DNA of 64,000 nt from the NCBI GenBank assembly GCA_001899305.1, contig MKWL01000002.1, positions 1 to 64,000 on the forward strand, in the 5' to 3' direction. Every line of letters starts with the position of its first letter. Position 1 is the first letter of the stretch. Below, one piece after another: positions 38,751 to 64,000 of this stretch. The DNA comes from Thiobacillus sp. 0-1251 (GTDB lineage Bacteria; Pseudomonadota; Gammaproteobacteria; Burkholderiales; Thiobacillaceae). The notes below the pieces were generated by a model. It saw nothing but the letters and a program-made list of their open reading frames with translations. It did no database searches and had not been told where the DNA came from. Made by a program: the position numbers and the translations under genes.

Positions 38751-39647
38751 CTATCTCCTGTAGGCTTCCACCAGGCGTCCGCCCTGGATCACGCGCTGCA
38801 TGAACCCGCCGACGCTGCCCAGGCTGGCGGGCTGCGGCCACCGCAACAGGCCGTCGGCCAGCTTGCGGAACTGCGAGGTCGACTGTGCGACGGGAAACGC
38901 CTCCACCACCGAGGTGCGCAAATGGCCTGCACGCGTGAGCCGCTCGTCGAGCGGAATATAGCCCAGGTAATCGACCGACACCCTCAGATACTGTTCGGCG
39001 GTATGGGCAAAATTACGCGCGACAGCCTGCGCCTGCTCAGGCGACTCGATGCGATTGAGCAGCAGGCGGAACTGGCGTTTGCCGAAGTTGTGGGCGAGCC
39101 GCTTCACCAGCGTGTAGGCCTGGGTGATCGCCGTGTTGCCGGGTGGCAGCACCACCATGATTTCGGACGCGGCCAGGCCCAGCGGCAAGGCGTCCGGGTC
39201 GGTCGCCTCCTCCATGTCCACCAGCACCACGTCGACGCCGCACTGCAGGCGGTTGAAACTCTGCGCCAGCCATTCCTGGTCGCGCTCGGACAGGCGGCCC
39301 AGGCGGTTGAAACCGCCGCCCAGCGGCAGGACCTGCACATTGTCGGGGCCGGTGAGGATCAGGGAATCCAGCGTGCAATGTCCGGCCAGCACATCCGCCA
39401 CGTCATGGCGCGGCGTCAGCCCCAGCGCGGCGCAGGCACCGCGCCCATGCCGGTCCTGATCGACGATGAGGACATCGCGGCCGGAACGTGCCAGGGCGAC
39501 GGCGAGATTGGCGGTCGCGGCAGTCTTGCCCGCCCCTTGCTGTCCCGACATCACGGTGATGACCTGAAACCCGGTCTGCCCCAGCAAACGGCGCAGTCCG
39601 GCGGCCTGGTCGCTGACGAATTTATCCAAGGGCCACCGCGCTTTCAC
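38751..39647 (-). CDS. flhG: FlhG/FleN MinD-like ATPase
   Basis: The 298-residue ParA/MinD-type ATPase has a deviant Walker A, VMSGQQGAGKTAATANLA, and Walker B-like VVLVDMEEATDPDALPLGL. FlhG limits flagellar number and works with FlhF at the pole. The likely start is GTG at 39647, overlapping flhF by 26 bases. I do not see an obvious C-terminal amphipathic membrane-targeting helix beyond GGFMQRVIQGGRLVEAY. Confidence 0.9.
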   Translation of the reverse strand: MKARWPLDKFVSDQAAGLRRLLGQTGFQVITVMSGQQGAGKTAATANLAVALARSGRDVLIVDQDRHGRGACAALGLTPRHDVADVLAGHCTLDSLILTGPDNVQVLPLGGGFNRLGRLSERDQEWLAQSFNRLQCGVDVVLVDMEEATDPDALPLGLAASEIMVVLPPGNTAITQAYTLVKRLAHNFGKRQFRLLLNRIESPEQAQAVARNFAHTAEQYLRVSVDYLGYIPLDERLTRAGHLRTSVVEAFPVAQSTSQFRKLADGLLRWPQPASLGSVGGFMQRVIQGGRLVEAYRR

Positions 39648-49800: not shown

Positions 49801-50664
49801 TCAAGGCTTGCCGGACTGCGTGGCCGGCTCCGCGGGCGCAAAACCGCTGGCATATTCGATCTTGCCGCTGCCACGCAGTTTGTGGATTTCGGCTTCCAGC
49901 AGGGTTTTGCGCTTCCCGCCCAGAATCAACTGAGCGATCGCGTCTCGGGCCTGCTCGAACGACACGGGCTGCGCCTGGCTGTCCAGCAATTGCAGCACAC
50001 TGACCCGACCCGCGTCCATCGGCACGACGACCGCCTGGCCATCCTTCATTCTGACGAGTTGCGCCAGCATGCTGGCCGGGATCTTTTCTGCCGGCCTGAC
50101 CGCCTCGCCGGACTTGACGGCAATCCCTTGCGTGCCCAGCCAATCGGTGAACTCGGTCAGGCTACTGCTTTGCTTCAACTGTGCTTCCACTTCGGCAACC
50201 CGCCCTGCCGCCAGTTGCAGTTCGAGTTCGTGGACGCGGTATAGCTTGCGCTGCGCAAACAATTCGGGATGCCGGTTGTAGTAGTCCCGAATGGCAGCGT
50301 CCGAAGGTTGGGGCAGATCCTTGAACAGGCGTTCCATATAGGCCTCCACAAGCACCTGGCGTTGTGCCTGCTGCATGGCCAGCGCAACCTCCGGCAACTT
50401 GTCCAGCTTCGCGTTCCTGGCGGCATGGCTGACCAAATGCTGGTCGATCAGGGCTTCCAGCACCTTGCCCCGAGCCTCGGCGGCGTCTGCAGCACTCATG
50501 GAACCCAGACGAGCCACCGCTCGATCCAGTTCAAATTCGCTGATCGTGTCGTCCCCCACTTTGGCTGCAACAGTATTCGGGGGCGGTGCTGCCGGCTGTT
50601 CGCAGCCAGACAGCAGCGTAGATACGGCCAGCATGACTGCAAGGGTGACACGGGGATTTTTCAT
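49801..50664 (-). CDS. epsD: EpsD-family peptidyl-prolyl isomerase lipoprotein
   Basis: The 287-residue protein has a lipoprotein signal with lipobox LLSGC (Cys21), a SurA-like helical N-terminal domain, and a parvulin-like region (KLYRVHELELQLAAG and later). It matches the EpsD family that sits in methanolan-type exopolysaccharide loci of betaproteobacteria. The rest of such a locus is not in the window. The symbol is by family, not by proven role. Confidence 0.82.
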   Translation of the reverse strand: MKNPRVTLAVMLAVSTLLSGCEQPAAPPPNTVAAKVGDDTISEFELDRAVARLGSMSAADAAEARGKVLEALIDQHLVSHAARNAKLDKLPEVALAMQQAQRQVLVEAYMERLFKDLPQPSDAAIRDYYNRHPELFAQRKLYRVHELELQLAAGRVAEVEAQLKQSSSLTEFTDWLGTQGIAVKSGEAVRPAEKIPASMLAQLVRMKDGQAVVVPMDAGRVSVLQLLDSQAQPVSFEQARDAIAQLILGGKRKTLLEAEIHKLRGSGKIEYASGFAPAEPATQSGKP

Positions 50665-51005
50665 CAACACTCCGGCGTTCTTGAATGCCCGGTATGGTGC
50701 GGGATTCGACCACATTGAGCAAGCCAAGGAAGCGGGCGTTCAAAATATGCTCAAGAAAGAAAGATTTACGCCGTAATTCAAAATCACTACACCGGAGCGG
50801 ATCAATATACCGATGGCACTCGCCGCTTATTGACCTATATTCCGACATGTAGCACTCCCGGTAGGGGTTCTTCCCCAGGCGCTCCTCCTCCTGCCACACC
50901 GGGTTTTTCGCGGCGCCTCTGGCGCCGCTTTTTGTTTGCCCCTCCCAGTCGCCAATTGGCACCTCCGCTGTCCGGCGCAGGATGCCCAATTGTCCCCGGA
51001 TGGCC
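50665..51005. other. 341-base gap with an orphan plus-strand hairpin
   Basis: I see no convincing coding frame. On the plus strand GGGG/CCCC hairpin bases near 50861-50878 are followed by the strong terminator at 50910-50933. The genes on both sides point left, so the plus-strand hairpin serves no visible gene. Confidence 0.35.
50910..50933 (+). terminator. Strong intrinsic terminator, plus strand
   Basis: GCGGCGCC (50910-50917), loop TCT and GGCGCCGC (50921-50928) are followed by five T residues at 50929-50933. Read leftwards the stem is not followed by T residues. It therefore terminates a rightward transcript, though no rightward gene is seen before it. Confidence 0.7.
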
Positions 51006-54686: not shown

Positions 54687-54719
54687 GCGTCATTTCATTG
54701 TCACGGCGGCTTGTTAGAT
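54687..54719 (+). promoter_or_regulatory. Pho box and -10 element of phoX
   Basis: GCGTCAT (54687-54693), spacer TTCA, TTGTCAC (54698-54704) match the PhoB direct repeat CTGTCAT-N4-CTGTCAY at five and six of seven positions. TTAGAT at 54714-54719 lies ten bases downstream, the usual place for the -10 of PhoB-activated promoters. The phoX ATG is about 67 bases further. Confidence 0.62.
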
Positions 54720-54786
54720 TTTGTGCGTTCCCGGTCGCCGGCCTGACGGCGACTGGTTTCGTCAAATCCATACCGGAGATCCGTCA

Positions 54787-56706
54787 ATGTCAGAACCTGT
54801 TTCCCATTCCCGCCGCCGCGCACTCCAACTGCTGTCTGGCGTACCGATGTTGCCGCTGGCCTCGTCGCTGGCCGGTTTGCCCCTTTTGGCCGAGGCTCGG
54901 CCCATGATGGGCGCGGCTGTTCGCTACCAGTTCAATGCGATGTCGGCCCCCTCGCTGGCCAACCCTTCGCAAATGGCTGAGACCTATGTCGCCTCGACCC
55001 TGACGAAAAGCATCGGCCGCCATGCCGAGACCTACGCGCTGGGCTACGAGACCTTCTTCCTGACCGGCGACACCGTGCCAAGCGCGGAAGGCGGCTCCAT
55101 CCTGGCCGGCGGCTACTTCGACATCAACAACGCACCCATCCTCGACACGACTTCGCCCGACCAGCGCCAGTTCTTCTCCGACTGCCCGGATGGCATGTCG
55201 CTGATCGCGCTGGGGCACGGACACGCGCGCTCGCGCCGCCGCGATTGCGAGCGTGTCTTCGCGGTGGTGCAGTTCGAATACGTGACACGGAACGTCGCCG
55301 GCGATTCGATGTACGGCATGCTGCCTTCGCCGATTGCGGTTCTGGCCATGGACCAGGATAAGCGTACCGGCAAGCTGACGCTGGAAAGCTATTCGAACGT
55401 GGACACCAGCGGCGTGCATGGCCTGTGGATCACCTGCGGCGCCAGCCGTTCGCCCTGGAACACGCATCTGTCGAGCGAGGAATACGAGCCCGACGCGGTC
55501 ACCATCGCCGGCAATGCGCAGTTCAAGGCGTTCAGCCAGAACCTCTACGGCAACCCGGATGCCGCCAACCCCTACCACTATGGCCACCTGCCGGAAGTGA
55601 CCGTGAACCCCAATGGCACGGGCAGCATCAAGAAGCATTACTGCATGGGCCGCATCTCGCACGAACTGGTGCAGGTGATGCCCGACGAGCGCACCGTACT
55701 GATGGGCGACGACACCACCAACGGCGGTCTGTTCATGTTCGTGGCCGACCGCAAGCGCGACCTCTCGGCCGGCACCCTGTACGTGGGCAAATGGACGCAG
55801 ACGTCCGGTGTGGGCGCTGGCGCCGGCGACATTTCCTGGATCAAGCTGGGGCATGCCACCAGCGACGAGATCAAGGCCCTGGCCGACACCCTGACCGCCG
55901 CCGACATCGTCGACGTGAAGACCAGCAACCCGAACGACGCCAGCTACGCGAAGATCGCGTACAACGGCAAGGCCCAGTGGGTGAAGTTCATGCCCGGCAT
56001 GGACAAGGCCGCCGCCTTTCTGGAAACCCACCGCTATGCCGCCTACAAGGGCGCGTCGATGGCCTTCACCAAGATGGAAGGCACCACGGTCAACGCGGCT
56101 GACAAGCGCGCCTATTCCGCCATGTCCTACATCTACAAGTCGATGGTCGACGGCACCACTGACATCAAGGTGCAGGGCCCCGTGGCCGGCGCGGTGTACG
56201 AGCACGTGCTGGCCGGCGGCCAGAAGGACAGCGACGGCGACCGCATTCACAGCGAGTGGGTCTCCGTCTCCATGTCCGCCCCCGCCGCCCTGGTGGGCGA
56301 GGACCTGGCGGTGCGCGACGCCCTGGGCAACAGCGCCAACGCCGACAAGATCGCCAACCCGGACAACCTCAAGTACTCCGAAGCGATGCGCACCCTGTTC
56401 ATCGGCGAGGACAGCGGCAACCACGTGAACAACTTCCTGTGGGCCTATAACGTCGACACCAAGGAACTGAGCCGTATCCTGTCCTGCCCCGCCGGTGCCG
56501 AATCCACCGGCCTGCATGCTGTCGACGACGTGAACGGCTTCAGCTACATCATGAGCAACTTCCAGCACCCTGGCGACTGGGAATCGCCGCTGCACGACAA
56601 GGTGAAGCCCATCCTGGATCCGCTGGTGAAGGCCAATTACAACGGCCGGTTCAGCGCGGCCGTCGGCTATCTCACGATCGAAGGATGCACCCGGCACGAC
56701 GACTGA
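54787..56706 (+). CDS. phoX: PhoX-family Tat-exported alkaline phosphatase
   Basis: The 639-residue protein has a Tat signal (SHSRRRALQLLSGVPMLPLASSLAGLPLLAEA) and the DUF839/PhoX fold: YALGYETFFLTGD, VHGLWITCGASRSPWNTHLSSEEYEPDA with the conserved WNT..SEEY metal/phosphate region, LVQVMPDERTVLMGDDTTNGGLFMFVA and GLHAVDDVNGFSYIMSNFQHPGDW. PhoX enzymes are Ca/Fe-dependent monoesterases that scavenge phosphate in the periplasm or outside. The Pho box upstream supports phosphate control. It converges on the TonB/FHA operon. Confidence 0.92.
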   Translation: MSEPVSHSRRRALQLLSGVPMLPLASSLAGLPLLAEARPMMGAAVRYQFNAMSAPSLANPSQMAETYVASTLTKSIGRHAETYALGYETFFLTGDTVPSAEGGSILAGGYFDINNAPILDTTSPDQRQFFSDCPDGMSLIALGHGHARSRRRDCERVFAVVQFEYVTRNVAGDSMYGMLPSPIAVLAMDQDKRTGKLTLESYSNVDTSGVHGLWITCGASRSPWNTHLSSEEYEPDAVTIAGNAQFKAFSQNLYGNPDAANPYHYGHLPEVTVNPNGTGSIKKHYCMGRISHELVQVMPDERTVLMGDDTTNGGLFMFVADRKRDLSAGTLYVGKWTQTSGVGAGAGDISWIKLGHATSDEIKALADTLTAADIVDVKTSNPNDASYAKIAYNGKAQWVKFMPGMDKAAAFLETHRYAAYKGASMAFTKMEGTTVNAADKRAYSAMSYIYKSMVDGTTDIKVQGPVAGAVYEHVLAGGQKDSDGDRIHSEWVSVSMSAPAALVGEDLAVRDALGNSANADKIANPDNLKYSEAMRTLFIGEDSGNHVNNFLWAYNVDTKELSRILSCPAGAESTGLHAVDDVNGFSYIMSNFQHPGDWESPLHDKVKPILDPLVKANYNGRFSAAVGYLTIEGCTRHDD

Positions 56707-56716
56707 CGTCCTGCCA

Positions 56717-56740
56717 GCCCGCCTGGACATCCAGGCGGGC
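56717..56740. terminator. Hairpin after phoX
   Basis: GCCCGCCTGG (56717-56726), loop ACAT and CCAGGCGGGC (56731-56740) form a perfect 10-bp stem eleven bases after the phoX stop. The following CTCTCAGT gives only a weak T run. Confidence 0.55.
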
Positions 56741-56878
56741 CTCTCAGTATCGTCCGGAACATCTCCCAAGCTGTTCCGGACGATCGCTCCGTATCATGTG
56801 AACCTATTTGAACTGAACGGCACCGAGACCTGAAAAAGCTCGGCTACGGCTGTTGAAAAGTCACAATCTGCGAACAGC

Positions 56879-57559
56879 TCAACCGCCAGGTGGCCTGATC
56901 AGCTTCTGGTCATCCAGTTTGTCGCGATATTCTTCCAGCAGGTTTTCCGTCTCCACCTTCCTGAGGCCGGAAAACGGTTCCTTTTCTGCCAGTATCTCGC
57001 CGCACGTCTTGTGTTCGAAACGATCCATCAGCGACCGTCCCACCTCGTAGAGCGCTACATTCTTGCGCTCGCACGAAGCGATGTCGCGTTCATGGCGTGT
57101 CTTGAGGGCTTCCAGGTCGCGTTTTTCCGCCCGCGTCTGTTGCAGGGCCTGGGTGGTGTCGGCCAGGGTCTTTTGAGTGTCAGCCAGCTGCTGCGATGCA
57201 GTGGCCAGTTCTTCCTTGACCTGCGTCAACTCACGGGTTGCCGCCACGAGTTGCTGCTTGCTGGCACCAAGCCCGTGCCTCAGGCTCGCCACTTGCCCTT
57301 CCACGGTCTTTGACGATGCCTGGGACTGCTCCAGGTCCGCCGCCAGCCGGGCCTTTTCCTGTTCCACGGCATCGAGTTGTCCCTGCACCTGGGACAACTG
57401 CTGCTGTACCCGCCGCAAGGCCTCGCGCTCGCGGCTGGCCTTCTTGTCGGACGCCTCGGCGTGCGGCGCCAGGCTGGCCATGCACACCATGAGCGCCAGC
57501 GACAACGTGCCCAGCCGTGCCGGACGTACATACTCGGATAGTCGATGTATCTGTTTCAT
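56879..57559 (-). CDS. Secreted coiled-coil protein of the TonB/FHA operon
   Basis: The 226-residue protein has a signal peptide (LSLALMVCMASLAPHAEA) and an almost unbroken Gln/Ala/Leu heptad region from about residue 40 to 165. A short C-terminal part follows with two cysteines (IASCERKNVALYEVGRSLMDRFEHKTCGEIL). A second tail segment is GLRKVETENLLEEYRDKLDD. I know no function. It is the last gene of the leftward operon and may be a periplasmic spacer for the Ton machinery. Confidence 0.75.
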   Translation of the reverse strand: MKQIHRLSEYVRPARLGTLSLALMVCMASLAPHAEASDKKASREREALRRVQQQLSQVQGQLDAVEQEKARLAADLEQSQASSKTVEGQVASLRHGLGASKQQLVAATRELTQVKEELATASQQLADTQKTLADTTQALQQTRAEKRDLEALKTRHERDIASCERKNVALYEVGRSLMDRFEHKTCGEILAEKEPFSGLRKVETENLLEEYRDKLDDQKLIRPPGG

Positions 57560-57605
57560 GGATTGATGCCCTGAACAAGAAAAAACAGGTCGTGGCCGAT
57601 GTGCT

Positions 57606-58382
57606 TCAAAACGAGGTCCCCCCACGCGCCACCAGCATGGTGGCGATATCCTGACGGTCGCCCGCCCAGAACAGCGGCCGGTTGCCATTGCGATCCATGA
57701 GATTGGGATCCACGCCGGCTGCCAGCATCATCGTCACGATATCCGTGTCGCCCTGCTCGACTGCGATGCCCAGGCTCACCCGGCCCTCCCGGTTCCAGAT
57801 CGTCATGTCGGGGTGATAGGCCAGCAGTTCCCGCACCACATCGACCCGGTGCATGAGCGTGGCCGCGATGATGGGCGTGTTGCCGTCATTGCTTTTCCTG
57901 TCGACGTCCGCACCGGCCTTCAGCAGCAGGCGGACGATCCGGACCTGTCCCTGGAGAGCTGCCATACCCAGCGGGGTAAAGCCGCGCCCCTTCAGATCCG
58001 GATCGGCGCCGGCCTCCAGCAGGATGCGCACCATCTCCACATTGCCGTTGGCGACGGCACGGGGAAGCGCCCGATCCCCCCAACGGTCGGCGCTGAGGTT
58101 GGGATTAACACCTTTGGCCAGCAATAGCGACACGGCTTTGAAATCATTCTCACCGGCGGCGGCAATCAACTTGACCTGATCGCCCTGGGCGTACTCCGGC
58201 TCCTGATCATTGCCGTCGGCCTTGATCCGCGCAAACACCAAGGGGTCCTGGCGCAAAGTGTTAGTTGCGGCGTTATCTTCCGGCAACAGCCAGGTGTCAC
58301 GCTCCATATCGAAGGCGTAGGCCGACAATGCCGTCAGCGCGGGCAGGATCAACAGCCAACGCAGTGCCTTAGAACTTGGCAT
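57606..58382 (-). CDS. Periplasmic ankyrin-repeat protein
   Basis: The 258-residue protein has a signal peptide (LRWLLILPALTALSAYA) and about five ankyrin repeats from residue 75, such as GNVEMVRILLEAGADPDLKGRGFTPLGMAALQGQVRIVRLLLKAGADVD. The start at 58382 overlaps the porin stop by 14 bases, so it is translated with the porin. Likely a periplasmic protein-binding partner of the porin or TonB. Confidence 0.82.
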   Translation of the reverse strand: MPSSKALRWLLILPALTALSAYAFDMERDTWLLPEDNAATNTLRQDPLVFARIKADGNDQEPEYAQGDQVKLIAAAGENDFKAVSLLLAKGVNPNLSADRWGDRALPRAVANGNVEMVRILLEAGADPDLKGRGFTPLGMAALQGQVRIVRLLLKAGADVDRKSNDGNTPIIAATLMHRVDVVRELLAYHPDMTIWNREGRVSLGIAVEQGDTDIVTMMLAAGVDPNLMDRNGNRPLFWAGDRQDIATMLVARGGTSF

Positions 58383-59916
58383 TGAAGTCCACTTGAAGAA
58401 CATCCACCCCAAAGGACAGCGGGCCGTCGATCGAGTCGGCGGACAGCCACTTCACCCCCAGCCAGGAATTGCGATCGATCCCGTACAGGCCGCCAAGATA
58501 AAATCCCTTGCTATTGGTCCCGCCCAGGTTGAAATCCGAGTCGGTAAAGGCATCCAGCGTGGCATCTCGCTGAAGATTGCGGTAGCCCAGGAAGGCTTGC
58601 CAATCCCCTTCCTTATCGACCTTCGGCATGCCCACAGTGAGCTTGGTGTTCCAGCCCAGGGTTCGGGCCTGATACCCTGCCCCCATGCGCTGTTGTACTT
58701 CGACGCTGTCATAGCCTAAGTTCTTGACCACATCGCCTGTCAGGATCACATGCACCGGTTCGAACTGGGCCAGATCGACCATCGCCGTCAGGTTGGCCAA
58801 TTGATAATCGGCAGCCAGCGCCCAGGTTCCCGTCCCTCCCAGGCTGATGTCAAACAGGGAATTTCCCTTCTGGCGATAGCCGGGTGTGGTCGCATCATAC
58901 AAATGGGGTCGGAAGGGATCCGTGTTGGGGATGCCCTTGATATTGCGATAGTCGTAATAGGCCAGACCGAAGCGCCAGCGGGTATCCGGACCTGCACGCC
59001 AGTTCACCCCCAATTGCGCCGCATAGAGCCATTTGTTTTTGGCCAGATTGGTCGGCGACGTCTCTACTGACTGCAGCGGGAAGGCGCCGATGGTCGCGAA
59101 AGGCTTCCAATCCCAGTTTTCTCTCGACCAGGGCGTAAAGCTGGCGGCAGCGCCTTCGAAGTTCACGTCGTCGTCCCAAACCAGGTCCGTACTGAAAAAT
59201 GGATTGGGAATGCGGCCACCGCTCACACTCAACCATTCCCACGGTGCCACCTTGGCGTAGGCCCGGTCCAGCACCAGGGAATATTTGTTGAAGGTCGTAC
59301 CCATGGTCTGATTGGTGGACACGGGGTCCGAGGTGTCGCCCGTCGTGATCCTGAATCCTGCCGAGACGTTATCCGTGATCTTGGCCAGCAGGCCCAGACG
59401 CGCACGCAGGCGGAGACGCTCCCGGGTCTCCGAGGTATTGTTGAGGTTGATGCCGTAACCCGCGAAGCTGTTGGGAATGTCATTGCTTTTGGCGTACAGG
59501 TCATCCTGAAAACGCAGACGGATATCGCCTTCCCACTTCAGGCGTTCCACCCATTCCGGTACCGCGTTTACGTCGCCCCAGTGCTCGGTCTTGGCCTGCG
59601 CCACCACTTCCTGCCGGATCTGCTCGCTGATTTCGCGCTTCACCACTTCGGGGATGTAAGGCACGCGCACCACGCCGGGCGCCGTTTCGGCCCTGGCGCT
59701 GGCTTCGGCCGCTTCCTGGCCTTTTTTCTCCGCCTGTTGGACGAGGTCCTGCGCCGCCTCGGCGCTCAGCACGCCCTTCTTCACCAGCGCGTCCACCAGG
59801 GCCAGCGTCGTCGCCCGCAGGGTTTCGAGGTCCTGGCGCTCGCTGCCGGCCTGGGCAGGCAACGCAAAGGCCAGGCTCAGCGCCATGACCAGGGGCTTGA
59901 TGTAATGAGTTTTCAT
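58369..59916 (-). CDS. Putative outer-membrane porin
   Basis: The 515-residue protein has a signal peptide (ALSLAFALPAQA), an N-terminal helical/coiled stretch (about 25-95), and a beta-barrel from about residue 130. The barrel begins with WEGDIRLRFQDDL and ends in the C-terminal phenylalanine VLQVDFNAKF needed for barrel assembly. It resembles the putative-porin family found beside DUF2341-ExbB genes. The N-terminal coil suggests trimerisation or a cell-wall contact. The substrate may be a phosphate compound, given the neighbours; this is inference. Confidence 0.85.
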   Translation of the reverse strand: MKTHYIKPLVMALSLAFALPAQAGSERQDLETLRATTLALVDALVKKGVLSAEAAQDLVQQAEKKGQEAAEASARAETAPGVVRVPYIPEVVKREISEQIRQEVVAQAKTEHWGDVNAVPEWVERLKWEGDIRLRFQDDLYAKSNDIPNSFAGYGINLNNTSETRERLRLRARLGLLAKITDNVSAGFRITTGDTSDPVSTNQTMGTTFNKYSLVLDRAYAKVAPWEWLSVSGGRIPNPFFSTDLVWDDDVNFEGAAASFTPWSRENWDWKPFATIGAFPLQSVETSPTNLAKNKWLYAAQLGVNWRAGPDTRWRFGLAYYDYRNIKGIPNTDPFRPHLYDATTPGYRQKGNSLFDISLGGTGTWALAADYQLANLTAMVDLAQFEPVHVILTGDVVKNLGYDSVEVQQRMGAGYQARTLGWNTKLTVGMPKVDKEGDWQAFLGYRNLQRDATLDAFTDSDFNLGGTNSKGFYLGGLYGIDRNSWLGVKWLSADSIDGPLSFGVDVLQVDFNAKF

Positions 59917-59954
59917 GATAAGTGGGTTAATGAATCTGTTCAAAAATCGGAATG

Positions 59955-60599
59955 TCAACGCGACACCACGCGCAGCCGCACCGGCTGCGGGATGTCGGCC
60001 GGCAAGGGGTCGCGCAGGCTCACCCGGAGAATTTCCTGGCGCAGCGCTTCGTCCAGTTCGCTGTCGCCCGTGCCCTTGTCGAGCTGCACCCGGCTGACGC
60101 CCCCTGACGGGTTGAACCAGATCTGCGCGACCACCTTGTAATCCTTGCCCTGCAGGCGCTTGGCACGCCTCAGGTCGTCCTCGAGTTGGCGCGAAATCAT
60201 GTTCGAATACCAGCTGCGACGTTCATCGCCGGCGCCGCCCCCGCCGATGCCGATCCCGCTGCCCGCAGCCAGGTCGGTCGCCATCCCGCCTGCCGGCCCG
60301 TCGGGGATGCCGCCGGGCGGCGGGGGCGGTGCCTCGGGCTGGGGTGGCTGGGGCTGGTCGAGCTTGACCTCTTCCTTCGGCTTGTCGATCTTCTGCGGCT
60401 CCGGCGGCTTTTCTTCCGGCGGCTTGGGTGGCGGCGGCTTGACCAGGGAAATGGTCTGGATCTTTGGCCTTTCGGGCTTGCCCGAATCCTGGATGAAACC
60501 CATGACGCCCCAGATCACGCCCGCCGTGAACAGCGCCATGAACAGCAGGCCGCCGATGAGCGGCAGCCGGCTGCGCAGGGATCGCTTGGGCGCCGGCAT
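59955..60599 (-). CDS. tonB: TonB-like energy transducer
   Basis: The 214-residue protein has one N-terminal helix (LIGGLLFMALFTAGVIWGVMGF), a proline-rich stretch with Pro-Lys and Pro-Glu runs (about 45-95), a Gly-rich hinge, and a C-terminal TonB domain (YKVVAQIWFNPSGGVSRVQLDKGTGDSELDEALRQEI). It transmits proton-motive force from ExbBD to an outer-membrane partner. It starts two bases after exbD ends. Confidence 0.88.
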   Translation of the reverse strand: MPAPKRSLRSRLPLIGGLLFMALFTAGVIWGVMGFIQDSGKPERPKIQTISLVKPPPPKPPEEKPPEPQKIDKPKEEVKLDQPQPPQPEAPPPPPGGIPDGPAGGMATDLAAGSGIGIGGGGAGDERRSWYSNMISRQLEDDLRRAKRLQGKDYKVVAQIWFNPSGGVSRVQLDKGTGDSELDEALRQEILRVSLRDPLPADIPQPVRLRVVSR

Positions 60600-60601
60600 C
60601 G

Positions 60602-61009
60602 TTATTTGGTCTGCTTGGCCGTCACCAGACCGAGCTGGGTGATGTCGAGCCGGCCGCACAAATCCATCACGTCGATCACTTTTTCATACGCGATCTTCGA
60701 ATCGCCCTTGATCACCACCGGCAGATCGGGGGTGATCGCCTTGAAGCTCTTCAGGCGGCTTTCGAGTTCGGCCATGCTGACCGGATAGGTATCCAGGTAG
60801 ATCTGCCCGTTGGCGTCGATGGTGACCGACTTTGTCTTCGGCTTGGCGAGGCTCGGTGTGTTGCTCGCCTTCGGCAGGTTGACCTTGATGCCCTGCACCG
60901 AGGCGGTCGTCATGATTATGAAGATGACCAGCAGCACATACGCCAGGTCCAGCATCGGCGTGATGTTGATATCGTCGAACGGTTCGTTGTCTTCGCGGAT
61001 CTCGGCCAT
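60602..61009 (-). CDS. exbD: ExbD-like proton channel subunit
   Basis: The 135-residue protein has one helix with the proton-carrying aspartate (DDINITPMLDLAYVLLVIFIIMTTA) and a periplasmic domain (SVTIDANGQIYLDTYPVSMAELESRL). It pairs with the ExbB-like protein encoded nine bases upstream. Confidence 0.93.
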   Translation of the reverse strand: MAEIREDNEPFDDINITPMLDLAYVLLVIFIIMTTASVQGIKVNLPKASNTPSLAKPKTKSVTIDANGQIYLDTYPVSMAELESRLKSFKAITPDLPVVIKGDSKIAYEKVIDVMDLCGRLDITQLGLVTAKQTK

Positions 61010-61018
61010 GTCCGTCTC

Positions 61019-62773
61019 CTATCGGCTGTAGGTTTCGGCGATGCGGGCGATGTACTCGTCGACGAACACGTGCATGTCGGCGCTGATCGACTTGATGCGC
61101 GAGCCGAGGTAGTTGTAGCCGAACAGCGCCGGGATCGCGACCGCGAGGCCGGCCACTGTTGCGACCAGCGCGGCGGCGATGCCGGGCGCGATCGCCGCGA
61201 CGTTGACGTCGCCGGTGGCGGCGATGGCGGCGAAGGTGATCATCACCCCCACCACGGTGCCGAGCAGGCCCAGGAACGGCCCGCCCGAAATCGCGATGGT
61301 CAACAGCACCATCAGGCTGTTGAGTTTCTGGTTCTCGCGCACCACCGTGGCATCGAGGCTGGCCTTCACCACATCGAGCGCCTGCGGCGACAGTTCCACG
61401 CCGGCACGCTTGCCCATGCGGTTCTTCACCTGCTGGATGCCGGCGTGATAGATGCGGTACAGGGTCGAGTTCTGGTGATGATCGTGATGGCCGAACAGGA
61501 TCTCCGCCATGCCGCTGCCCTTCAGGTCGGCATCCTCGGGATCGTCGTCGGCATCCAGCCTGGCCGTATCCTGCGCCTTCAAATCATGGAAGGCTTCCAG
61601 GAATTCCTTGTTCGCCCGGGTGATCTTGCTCACCAGCAACGCCTTCGAGGCCATCACCAACATGCTGATGCCGAGCATCACCATCAGCACCGCGATCACC
61701 ACCCAGCCATCCAGGGTCACGCTCTTCAGGATCACGCCGAAATAGGAGGCATCGCCGTCGCTGTCCTCGCTTTCTTCCTCTCCCGCCTGCACCACCTTGT
61801 CGCTGTCCGGGCCTTGCGTCATCGCGGCCAGGCGCAGCCAATCCGCGCTGCGTGCAATGTTGGACACTTCCAGTTCATCGACCTCGCCCTTGAAGCCCGA
61901 GCCAAGTTTCAGATCCAGTGCCGCATCGGGTGCCGCCACTGCGGCCTCGGCTGCCATCGCGCCGTTGAGATACACACGAAGCTTGTCGCCCAGGGTCGCC
62001 GACACCTGGCTCCAGCTTGTTGCGGGAACATCCGGCCCGGTTACCGTGACGCTGCCCGAACGGGCGACCAACTTGCCGCCTTCCAGTGCCAGCGTCAGCG
62101 TCTGCCCGGCATGCAGCAGTTCGGCCGTTTGGCCGGCCGTGTCCGGCTTGATCCAGAGTGAGACCATCATGCCGGCCGCCGCGCCATAGACCAGTTTCGG
62201 TGTGGCAGGAATATCGAGCGTTTGCGTTCCGTCGAACTTGAGGGCCCCACCGATCGCCCCGCCCGGGGTGCGCGTGGCGGTGAAGGCACCGGATGGAATC
62301 GCCGCGGCCGTGCTGTCCTGCGGCGCACCGCTGGCCTCCGCGTAATGCTGGACCAGCATGAAGCTGGGGTCGTAGACTGCTTTGCCGTCGCCAACCGCAG
62401 GCGCGCCCTCGTTGCCGTAATACAGCCAGACCTGCTGCTTGTCCTTGCCGCCTTCCACCTTGGGAACCTGTACCCAGATCAGGGCCTGCTCGGCGGTGCT
62501 GTCGAATTTCTCGATCTGGAAATTCAGCGGCGTCTTGTCGTCACCCGCCACGAAGCGCAGATCGGAGCCATTGGGATTCGCGCTCAGAAAGTCGAAGTTG
62601 CCCGTGTGCAGGCGGATCAGTACCGGCACGTTGGTCTGCGTTTCCTTCACGCCTGCGCCCGAGTCGGCCGTATTGATCGTGAACGCCTTGCGCGCCGACC
62701 AGTCGCCGTTCCACCACGCATGGGCCGGAGCGGCCGCCAACATCAACAGCAAAGGGAACAGGAATCGGATCAT
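61019..62773 (-). CDS. exbB: DUF2341-LamG-ExbB fusion protein
   Basis: The 584-residue protein joins an exported front half to an ExbB channel. A signal peptide (FLFPLLLMLAAAPAHA) is followed by a DUF2341 domain (WWNGDWSARKAFTIN to about 130) and a LamG/concanavalin-like domain (about 150-310, SLWIKPDTAGQTAELLHAG). A first channel helix lies near 350-375, and the MotA/TolQ/ExbB domain has helices at about 484-515 and 528-555. DUF2341 and LamG domains often bind glycans, so the channel may be tied to peptidoglycan or surface sugar. Ordinary ExbB is about 240 residues. Confidence 0.9.
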   Translation of the reverse strand: MIRFLFPLLLMLAAAPAHAWWNGDWSARKAFTINTADSGAGVKETQTNVPVLIRLHTGNFDFLSANPNGSDLRFVAGDDKTPLNFQIEKFDSTAEQALIWVQVPKVEGGKDKQQVWLYYGNEGAPAVGDGKAVYDPSFMLVQHYAEASGAPQDSTAAAIPSGAFTATRTPGGAIGGALKFDGTQTLDIPATPKLVYGAAAGMMVSLWIKPDTAGQTAELLHAGQTLTLALEGGKLVARSGSVTVTGPDVPATSWSQVSATLGDKLRVYLNGAMAAEAAVAAPDAALDLKLGSGFKGEVDELEVSNIARSADWLRLAAMTQGPDSDKVVQAGEEESEDSDGDASYFGVILKSVTLDGWVVIAVLMVMLGISMLVMASKALLVSKITRANKEFLEAFHDLKAQDTARLDADDDPEDADLKGSGMAEILFGHHDHHQNSTLYRIYHAGIQQVKNRMGKRAGVELSPQALDVVKASLDATVVRENQKLNSLMVLLTIAISGGPFLGLLGTVVGVMITFAAIAATGDVNVAAIAPGIAAALVATVAGLAVAIPALFGYNYLGSRIKSISADMHVFVDEYIARIAETYSR

Positions 62774-62899
62774 GTCTCAATGTCTTCGAGATGTTTACAA
62801 AGTCATTGATTGTGTATGTCGCATGTTGCATGGCCATGAACATGCAGCGCCGCGACATGAGCCGATCGGCACATGCCGGCGCCGCATCCAGGACGGTCT

Positions 62900-64000
62900 T
62901 CAGCTGCCTCCTTTCTTCTTGGCACATGCGGTATCGCCATCTGGACAGCGCCCGGCCCCCTCGCCAAAACCCAGTACCTCTACGCTGATAAGCGAAGGCT
63001 TGAAGTTGGCAAGGGCCTCCTGGACCTTTTGCATCTGTTCCGCCGAGTCCGCTGAACCATCCCGCATCGACCGGTTGGTTTCCTCAGCCGACTGGCCATT
63101 CGGAGACAGGTTGCCGAGACCGCTCAAGCCTGCGCCCAAGCCGCTGCTCGACGCGGGCGCACCGACGACATTACCGCCCACTTGGATATTCCCGCTATTC
63201 AGAACCTGCTGGGCTGCGATCAGCAGATTGCCGGAGGAACGGATGCCCGCATCGCCCGCATCCACCACACCGGATGGTGCGGCCAGCACCACATTGCCGT
63301 CGGGAATATTGGGATTGGTCTTGAGCGTTCCGATCCCGCTGCCGCTCACCGTACCCTGCACATTCAGCGTCGGGTTGCCGCTGGCATCATAGGTGACCTG
63401 GGGCGGCGGAGCAGCGGTCGCCGTCTTCTTGCCCTTGCCTGCATCCACGTTGCCCAGGGTTGACCAGAGCAGGATGTCTCCCCCGGCTACGGTGAGTACC
63501 CTGGACTGGTTCACCTGGATATCGTCCCGGGCCATCGCCAGGATATTGCCCCCGGCAAAACTCATGATGCCCAGATCGGATGGCGCCTTGTTGTCAGCCA
63601 GGCTGGGCGGCGGGTTGGCCAGTCCCACGTTGAGGCTGCCGCCCGGCATGAGCAATTGGATATCACCGGTTTGCTGGGTGCTGATACGGCTGAATACCAG
63701 ATTCACATCGCCTTGATAGGCCAGCGGAACGCCCGCGGCATCCTGGCTTGGGAACAATGTGGCAATGGCATCGTAGGCCCGGTCATAGCCCTTGCCTGCC
63801 TGCCCTTCGCTGGCGCCGATCAACAGCTCGTTATTGAGAACAAGCAGGGCCTGCTGAGCCTGAGACAAACTGGAGAAGTCCGCTGGCACCTTGTAATCGG
63901 CCAGGGCCGCGCTACCTGGCGTCAGATAGCGTGCAGCGAATCCGGCATAGTCCGGATCCCGCACGTGACCGTCGCCATCCTGTCCCAGGCCTGCTGCGAC
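62900..64000 (-). CDS. Filamentous-haemagglutinin-like exoprotein, C-terminal part
   Basis: The reading frame is open to the window edge, so about 366 C-terminal residues of a larger protein are visible. Repeated short beta segments (GDIQLLMPGGSLNVG, GGNILAMARDDIQVNQSRVLTVAGGDILLWSTLGNVDAGKGKKTA, GNVVLAAPSGVVDAGDAGIRSSGNLLIAAQQVLNSGNIQVGG) are typical of the DUF3739 region of two-partner-secreted filamentous haemagglutinins. The tail ends CPDGDTACAKKKGGS. It is upstream of exbB on the same strand. The secretion partner and N-terminal TPS domain must lie beyond the window. Confidence 0.85.
   Translation of the reverse strand, partial: VAAGLGQDGDGHVRDPDYAGFAARYLTPGSAALADYKVPADFSSLSQAQQALLVLNNELLIGASEGQAGKGYDRAYDAIATLFPSQDAAGVPLAYQGDVNLVFSRISTQQTGDIQLLMPGGSLNVGLANPPPSLADNKAPSDLGIMSFAGGNILAMARDDIQVNQSRVLTVAGGDILLWSTLGNVDAGKGKKTATAAPPPQVTYDASGNPTLNVQGTVSGSGIGTLKTNPNIPDGNVVLAAPSGVVDAGDAGIRSSGNLLIAAQQVLNSGNIQVGGNVVGAPASSSGLGAGLSGLGNLSPNGQSAEETNRSMRDGSADSAEQMQKVQEALANFKPSLISVEVLGFGEGAGRCPDGDTACAKKKGGS

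Follow-up and report, generated by a model that had tools for sequence, protein, structure and literature searches.

A conserved two-partner secretion, Ton motor and porin module in Thiobacillus and the candidate clients of its motor

Which outer-membrane component is driven by a proton-powered motor whose genes stand between that of a giant exported protein and that of a porin? The question is raised by a stretch of 64,000 nucleotides from Thiobacillus sp. 0-1251 (contig MKWL01000002.1, positions 1 to 64,000), referred to here as the window. The host is close to T. thioparus, its porin sharing 95 percent identity with the one from Thiobacillus thioparus DSM 505. That the DUF3739 exoprotein, the DUF2341-ExbB motor and the Porin_5 channel of this locus form one module is well supported. 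The gene set offers a way to ask what proton-driven motors power at the cell surface, since it contains a motor with two fixed companions, the exoprotein and the channel, together with two short motifs that are open to mutation. Should the porin be the client of the motor, the barrels known to be served by TonB would no longer be limited to plugged receptors. Should the exoprotein be the client, this would be an exception to type V secretion using no gradient, as type Vb translocation is described as proceeding without an energy source (PMC5422565).

The core genes are located on a single strand with short gaps and read leftward in the order TpsB, TpsA, DUF2341-LamG-ExbB, ExbD, TonB, Porin_5, ankyrin-repeat protein and coiled-coil protein, according to Pfam and to the regions past position 64000, which were also read; C2 coordinates refer to the contig whose first 64 kb is the window. 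Positions 62900..64000 (minus strand) encode the C-terminal 366 of the 3,371 residues of the exoprotein TpsA with its Pfam domain DUF3739 (residues 3178-3287), and the gene runs on to C2:73015, so that the complete protein also contains the two-partner secretion (TPS) domain (residues 60-283). The gene for the partner TpsB (560 amino acids, POTRA_2 and ShlB) directly precedes that of TpsA past position 64000, with overlapping reading frames. The ExbB protein (61019..62773, minus strand) combines DUF2341, the lectin-like Laminin_G_3 and the proton channel domain MotA_ExbB, all by Pfam, with an apparent signal peptide as judged by eye; 22 sequences of the protein were aligned, and its top NCBIfam match was TolQ, under the cut-off of that family. 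The Vibrio TonB2/TtpC-type motors also have an ExbB-type subunit enlarged by a periplasmic domain, but unlike in Thiobacillus this addition is DUF3450-like and the motors come without a TPS pair. DUF2341 is named by a stator phylogeny among the appended domains of unknown function; the one other paper found to contain both DUF2341 and ExbB is on corals.

ExbD (60602..61009, minus strand, Pfam ExbD) carries an Asp after TPML, which was kept in 22 of 22 aligned sequences and which we take to be the channel Asp. It is followed by the TonB-like energy transducer with a Pro-rich linker (59955..60659, minus strand, Pfam TonB_2, start perhaps at 60599) and by the outer-membrane channel (58369..59958, minus strand, Pfam Porin_5 with an E value of 2e-163, likely start at 59913). 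The motor of a classical TonB-dependent uptake system is present, with ExbB, ExbD and TonB and the kept Asp of ExbD; the 22-stranded plugged barrel of such a system is absent, Porin_5 being the sole Pfam match of the porin. An earlier note on the window, made from its letters alone, had listed these genes, and the list was borne out by Pfam except for the coiled-coil protein, which had sub-threshold matches only; the TpsB partner that it proposed to seek past position 64000 is the one described above.

Co-occurrence was followed in 200 genomes drawn from the order and 369 drawn from the class, two of which (G000 and G049) were in both samples; G and L codes are labels for sampled genomes and loci. 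In the draw from the order, full-length DUF2341-ExbB was found in 23 genomes, DUF3739 also in 23, and full-length Porin_5 in 22, with a contig-end fragment in one more genome and distant partial matches in five further ones. All three families were common to the same 22 genomes, while 175 had none of them. The three genomes with a single family had their match on a 3.5-kb contig (G052), as a fragment at a contig start (G082) or near a contig start (G135). In the draw from the class, near full-length Porin_5 was present in 24 genomes, 23 of which also had DUF3739 above the cut-off; the remaining one, G303, had its porin on an 8.6-kb contig, and in G421 the DUF3739 match was under the cut-off. 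DUF2341-ExbB was followed across the class by synteny in 19 regions and by a search of 13 genomes, among which a full-length copy was not found in G398 (64 percent complete).

Order and strand of the run ExbB-ExbD-TonB-Porin were kept in 21 of the 22 order genomes, the exception (L037) having its porin on a different contig, and in 18 of the 19 class regions (exception L263). TpsA immediately precedes ExbB in 18 of the 22 order genomes, and with one gene between them in L045. The synteny search that the earlier note had called for returned a set that recurs together in 22 of 200 order genomes, with the order of the run conserved in 21 of them. Because the trio co-occurs in the same genomes, the genes are regarded as one module, and because the synteny is kept across the draws, a chance neighbourhood is excluded. 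The explanation that unrelated genes became neighbours by accident has nothing in its favour, is already refuted by the co-occurrence and gene order seen among the 200 order and 369 class genomes, and can practically be dismissed.

The gene row itself was already known from Pseudomonas aeruginosa, where the published order is pdtB (PA0692), exbB2 (PA0693), exbD2 (PA0694), tonB4 (PA0695), PA0696 and PA0697, followed by PA0698 (YbjN) and PA0699 (PpiC); in the same account, PA0696 is a putative outer membrane porin and exbB2-exbD2-tonB4 was in 2020 termed still uncharacterized (PMC7035377). This set was reported in 2009 in a VreI regulon, and a grouping of TPS, ExbBD and PA0696 homologues had been noted by Llamas 2009 in several species (PMC2729926), so the gene association as such is not new. 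Judged from the published order, the Thiobacillus locus resembles the PUMA3-controlled locus (pdtA = PA0690) in that TpsB, ExbB, ExbD, TonB, the porin and the following protein appear in the same sequence. It contains a TpsA with a TPS domain, a TpsB with POTRA_2/ShlB, and an exbB-exbD-tonB-porin run followed by a helical protein. A plasmid of Klebsiella quasipneumoniae, which stood in for the P. aeruginosa sequences in the comparison, has the row haemagglutinin, ShlB, ExbB, ExbD, TonB, porin, hypothetical protein, YbjN, peptidyl-prolyl isomerase, hypothetical protein and LysR, with DUF2341 and LamG on its ExbB and Porin_5 as its porin.

The likeness is well supported: the Thiobacillus module is a form of the pdtAB-exbB2D2-tonB4-PA0696-PA0697 set, and the parallel to pdtA/pdtB with exbB2-exbD2 drawn by the earlier note proved to be close, with the same gene order as in the published list. 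Unlike the PUMA3 locus, Thiobacillus has TpsB, then TpsA, then ExbB, and it has a LuxR gene and PstS-like, PEP-CTERM and ankyrin genes but, by consensus scoring, no Pho box before the operon. FecR, extracytoplasmic function (ECF) sigma factor and STN-domain genes stand beside TpsA in G138, and homologues of FecR and the ECF sigma factor occur in G158. With respect to such VreA/VreI/VreR-type genes, clustering yielded no homologues of the G138 ECF sigma factor and FecR in C2:30000-95000, and none were seen in the larger frames beyond TpsB to which a scan was limited. Two types of neighbourhood therefore exist, the PUMA3 type and that of this Thiobacillus. What is new beyond the known row is the joint occurrence of the three families, the two motifs, the paired Cys and a neighbourhood unlike that of PUMA3. 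Within the collection of papers searched, there was none naming DUF3739, none combining exosortase, two-partner secretion and ExbD, and none combining type V secretion, ExbB, proton motive force and filamentous hemagglutinin. As side observations, insertion sequences are located a few genes off the TPS-Ton-porin row of the Klebsiella plasmid (L252, NZ_CP084804.1, typed conjugative), and a second Klebsiella plasmid, NZ_CP065459.1, has a DUF2341-ExbB match.

Two short motifs point to possible contact sites of the motor, one in the porin and one in the exoprotein. A model of the porin, calculated from 21 sequences with a mean predicted local distance difference test (pLDDT) value of 79.8, starts with three long helices and contains 16 main strands. 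No other 8-residue stretch of the porin is as conserved as VRVPYIPE (59647..59670, minus strand; residues 82-89), a candidate TonB docking site situated in the model in a low-confidence linker between helices two and three, before the barrel. This linker, VRVPYVPE in its general form, is predicted to be unstructured and periplasmic. Conservation of the window of the motif was 0.90 compared to a porin mean of 0.56, and the strict pattern was found in 88 of 108 porins; 17 of the 20 misses have close variants such as VRVTYIPE in the part of the sequence seen, which in the other 3 stops short of the site. A sequence search of the PDB with the porin gave no match. The best fold match of the model was OmpM1 of Veillonella parvula (15-16 percent identity), an outer-membrane attachment porin; differing from OmpM1 in this comparison, the Thiobacillus porin has no SLH domain among its Pfam matches.

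The second motif is PSLISVEVLGFGE in the C-terminal tail of TpsA (62960..62998, minus strand), which is followed by a Cys pair and resembles PSF[IL][ST]VEV[LI]GxG. After removal of 4 sequences without the DUF3739 region from 85 collected tails, 51 of the remaining 81 matched the strict pattern, as did 1 of 1,833 internal windows. A relaxed pattern was matched by 74 of the 81, its frequency being 3.2 percent in internal windows and 6.6 percent in shuffled tails. In a model of the last 420 residues of TpsA, the structure was mostly confident and largely strand, with some weak loops, to about residue 334, and pLDDT blocks of 29-51 followed from residue 341 onward, so that the tail is predicted to be disordered. 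The Thiobacillus protein has two Cys 7 residues apart within its last 15 residues, a pair that could close a loop. Two Cys with a spacing of 5-12 were found in the last 45 residues of 23 of the 81 tails and a single Cys in none, while 21 of 3,228 internal 45-residue windows had two or more; in a smaller set, 3 of 21 tails had the pair (the tail of L037 is cut by a contig end). This all-or-pair pattern fits a predicted disulphide anchor as in HMW1 and HxuA, for which anchoring of the TpsA protein by a C-terminal disulphide loop is described (PMC5422565).

The best guess, put forward tentatively, is that TonB acts on the Porin_5 barrel and that the anchored TpsA is a surface capture protein. By family likeness, TpsB would put the giant beta-helical TpsA on the surface, where it would probably remain anchored via its tail, as suggested by the conserved motif and the Cys pair. 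The dedicated ExbB-ExbD-TonB motor with its lectin-like domain on ExbB would drive an outer-membrane partner, most likely the Porin_5 barrel, TonB engaging the VRVPYVPE linker in the periplasmic part of the porin. The porin would then be an energised gate for the uptake of a solute, perhaps phosphate or a phosphorus compound, collected outside by TpsA and a PstS-like binding protein. Such an arrangement would be similar to HxuA/HxuB/HxuC of H. influenzae, a TPS pair in an operon with a TonB-linked outer-membrane channel (PMC5422565), with the porin replacing the TonB-dependent receptor. The Cys pair near the end of TpsA adds to this similarity, but HxuC is a TonB-dependent transporter, whereas the Thiobacillus channel is of the porin type and its operon has a dedicated motor.

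Several points weigh against the porin as the energised partner. A plug domain is absent from the porin, the solved structures closest to it in fold were OmpM1 and general porins with template modelling scores (TM-scores) of at most 0.47 by query length among 50 matches listed, and the VRVPYVPE motif is, as we take it, unlike the classical TonB boxes. Moreover, 58 of the 81 tails have no Cys in their last 45 residues, so a Cys anchor is not general. The Pho box that could connect the operon to phosphate was not found by consensus scoring, and PhoX is a rare neighbour of the module, seen in 5 of 42 genomes only, as given in detail below. Finally, TpsA instead of the porin could be the client of the motor.

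The latter is the next best reading, doubtful but possible: the motor would act on TpsA/TpsB, and the proton-motive force would help in secretion, retention, retraction or release of the exoprotein, for which the conserved tail of TpsA, possibly kept in the periplasm, would be the handle. In agreement with such a handle, the motif in its relaxed form closes a tail that is predicted to be disordered, several of the tails missed by the pattern show it by eye, and Cys come as a pair or not at all. In addition, DUF3739 above its cut-off but without a found motor or porin occurred in the two draws only near contig ends or in incomplete genomes, ExbB having been searched in part of the class. Other TPS systems need no motor, however, the porin would be left unexplained, and most tails are without the Cys pair. 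As a combination of both, the Ton motor might work on the VRVPYVPE linker as well as on the anchored TpsA tail, so that two-partner secretion powered or regulated by the proton-motive force and the porin would form one energised outer-membrane machine; this is no more probable than action on TpsA, and the Cys count over 81 tails raised both possibilities slightly. A spread of the module through Beta- and Gammaproteobacteria is likewise assumed with reservation. It is improbable, on the other hand, that TpsA serves the cell as an adhesin to the exopolysaccharide it makes itself, which the motor with its lectin-like ExbB domain would sense or move. Gliding motors that handle adhesins, such as Agl-Glt, are the model for such a machine, and XrtB-type exopolysaccharide genes of the EpsL, CAAX-like protease, EpsD, EpsE or EpsF kind are present in the fetched regions of at least 11 of 22 order genomes; in the window, an EpsD-family isomerase is encoded at 49804-50727, a PEP-CTERM protein is encoded upstream of the operon, and ExbB carries Laminin_G_3. 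Because such neighbours were absent from the stretches seen around the module in G138, G158 and the Klebsiella plasmid, however, exopolysaccharide is unlikely as the common client.

The remaining alternative concerns regulation and solute rather than the client. The earlier note had proposed a phosphate-starvation machine, and its control by PhoB in Thiobacillus, too, is possible, although rather less than probable. In P. aeruginosa, PhoB and the sigma factor VreI control promoters of the locus, and those of pdtA and phdA are PhoB-dependent according to published data (PMC4971064). Pho boxes were scored by a simple consensus count in place of a trained matrix, with 620 control upstream regions giving a mean of 9.4 and a 95th percentile of 11.01. 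The Pho-box-like site before phoX, GCGTCATTTCATTGTCAC (54687..54704, plus strand), scored 11.25 and thus barely exceeded the 95th percentile, and its core was kept in two relatives, T. thioparus (L120) and L122. PhoX (54787..56706, plus strand, Pfam) does converge on the operon as noted earlier, but its Pho box is marginal. No Pho box, as had been sought before the operon with the haemagglutinin-like gene, was found by this scoring: the best values were 8.75 before TpsB, 9.0 before the gene of the PstS-like protein and 8.25 before the PEP-CTERM gene, all below the control mean. Of the upstream regions compared between genomes, 4 of 16 for TpsB (G025, G072, G138, G158) reached the control 95th percentile, compared to 2 of 17 for TpsA, 0 of 11 for the PstS-like binding protein and 0 of 14 for the PEP-CTERM protein. 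A LuxR-type gene in place of the ECF sigma/FecR pair also speaks against control by PhoB.

With gene pieces joined by hand and contig ends ignored, PhoX was located no more than 20 kb from the module in 5 of 42 genomes when 0.57 were expected (P about 3e-4). The count fell to 4 when the window was left out (P about 0.003), and to 3 when the copy broken by stops in G209 was also removed (P about 0.02). This enrichment and the PstS-like neighbour are in favour of PhoB control. PhoX as a fixed part of the module was rejected, as it was present anywhere in 24 of the 42 genomes and within 20 kb in 5. PhoD, present in 18 of 42, was within 20 kb of the core in none, the nearest being about 22 kb from TpsB in G016. 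A recurrent co-occurrence with phosphatases, as expected earlier, is therefore supported by PhoX being above chance near the module, but it is rare and does not extend to PhoD. On balance, the PhoX enrichment and the P. aeruginosa parallel stand against the absence of a Pho box before the Thiobacillus operon, and phosphate as a theme of this module is plausible but unproved. A site scoring 11.0 was observed outside the operon, before another PEP-CTERM-like frame (C2:80123-80716). On a plasmid of Methylomagnum ishizawai (L251), PhoX and a second alkaline phosphatase are flanked by the ExbB set on one side and a haemagglutinin gene on the other; ExbB-ExbD-TonB, the two phosphatases, a cluster for a ribosomally synthesised and post-translationally modified peptide with Cys at every fifth position, and the haemagglutinin gene are within about 31 kb, in which a porin was not found.

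Upstream of TpsB, genes for a PstS-like binding protein, a PEP-CTERM protein and a LuxR-type protein are on the same strand. The PstS-like gene is just downstream of the PEP-CTERM gene (G000:C2:74891-76144 and 76226-76975) and beside TpsB in many relatives, and the scanned frames adjoining it gave no sign of a permease. It was found in the fetched regions of at least 13 of the 22 order genomes; such neighbour-gene counts are lower bounds, as the simple gene picker overlooks genes in G028, and core counts were made separately. The top family match of the protein was PstS, weak and under the cut-off, and a PDB sequence search gave one weak match to a phosphate-binding protein (E value 0.059). 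The pattern R..[GT]SG[ST] was kept in 27 of 28 PstS-like proteins, the remaining one being a cut piece, and GSGT in 23, a stretch presumably similar to the site at which PstS binds phosphate. Genes of the type II secretion core were also in the fetched regions of at least 11 of the 22 order genomes, and these and the exopolysaccharide genes are commoner neighbours of the module than PhoX.

At the downstream end, the operon continues with an accessory ankyrin-repeat protein (57606..58412, minus strand, Pfam ankyrin repeats), which is not universal, being in at most 30 of 80 named loci, and with a coiled-coil protein (56879..57688, minus strand, likely start near 57559), which has a conserved C-terminal block and sub-threshold Pfam coiled-coil matches and is present in 18 of 19 class regions and 77 of 80 named loci. 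A sigma-70 scan of L002:12900-18700 found no promoter, and the terminator scan of the window gave 12 candidates with 6.0 expected and was uninformative. At least two exbD-like frames, mostly consecutive between exbB and tonB, were seen in L046, L050 and 28 of 80 named loci. In G209, a gene for a tetratricopeptide repeat (TPR)-sulfotransferase protein (L263:5613-7508, minus strand), which may modify the exoprotein, directly follows TpsA, and the ExbB gene is located about 12 kb past the other end of TpsA. In the window, ClpS and a ClpA-like gene are between EpsD and PhoX, and a MinD/EpsG-like ATPase at 38754-39647 is, together with EpsD, a sign of an exopolysaccharide region beside the module.

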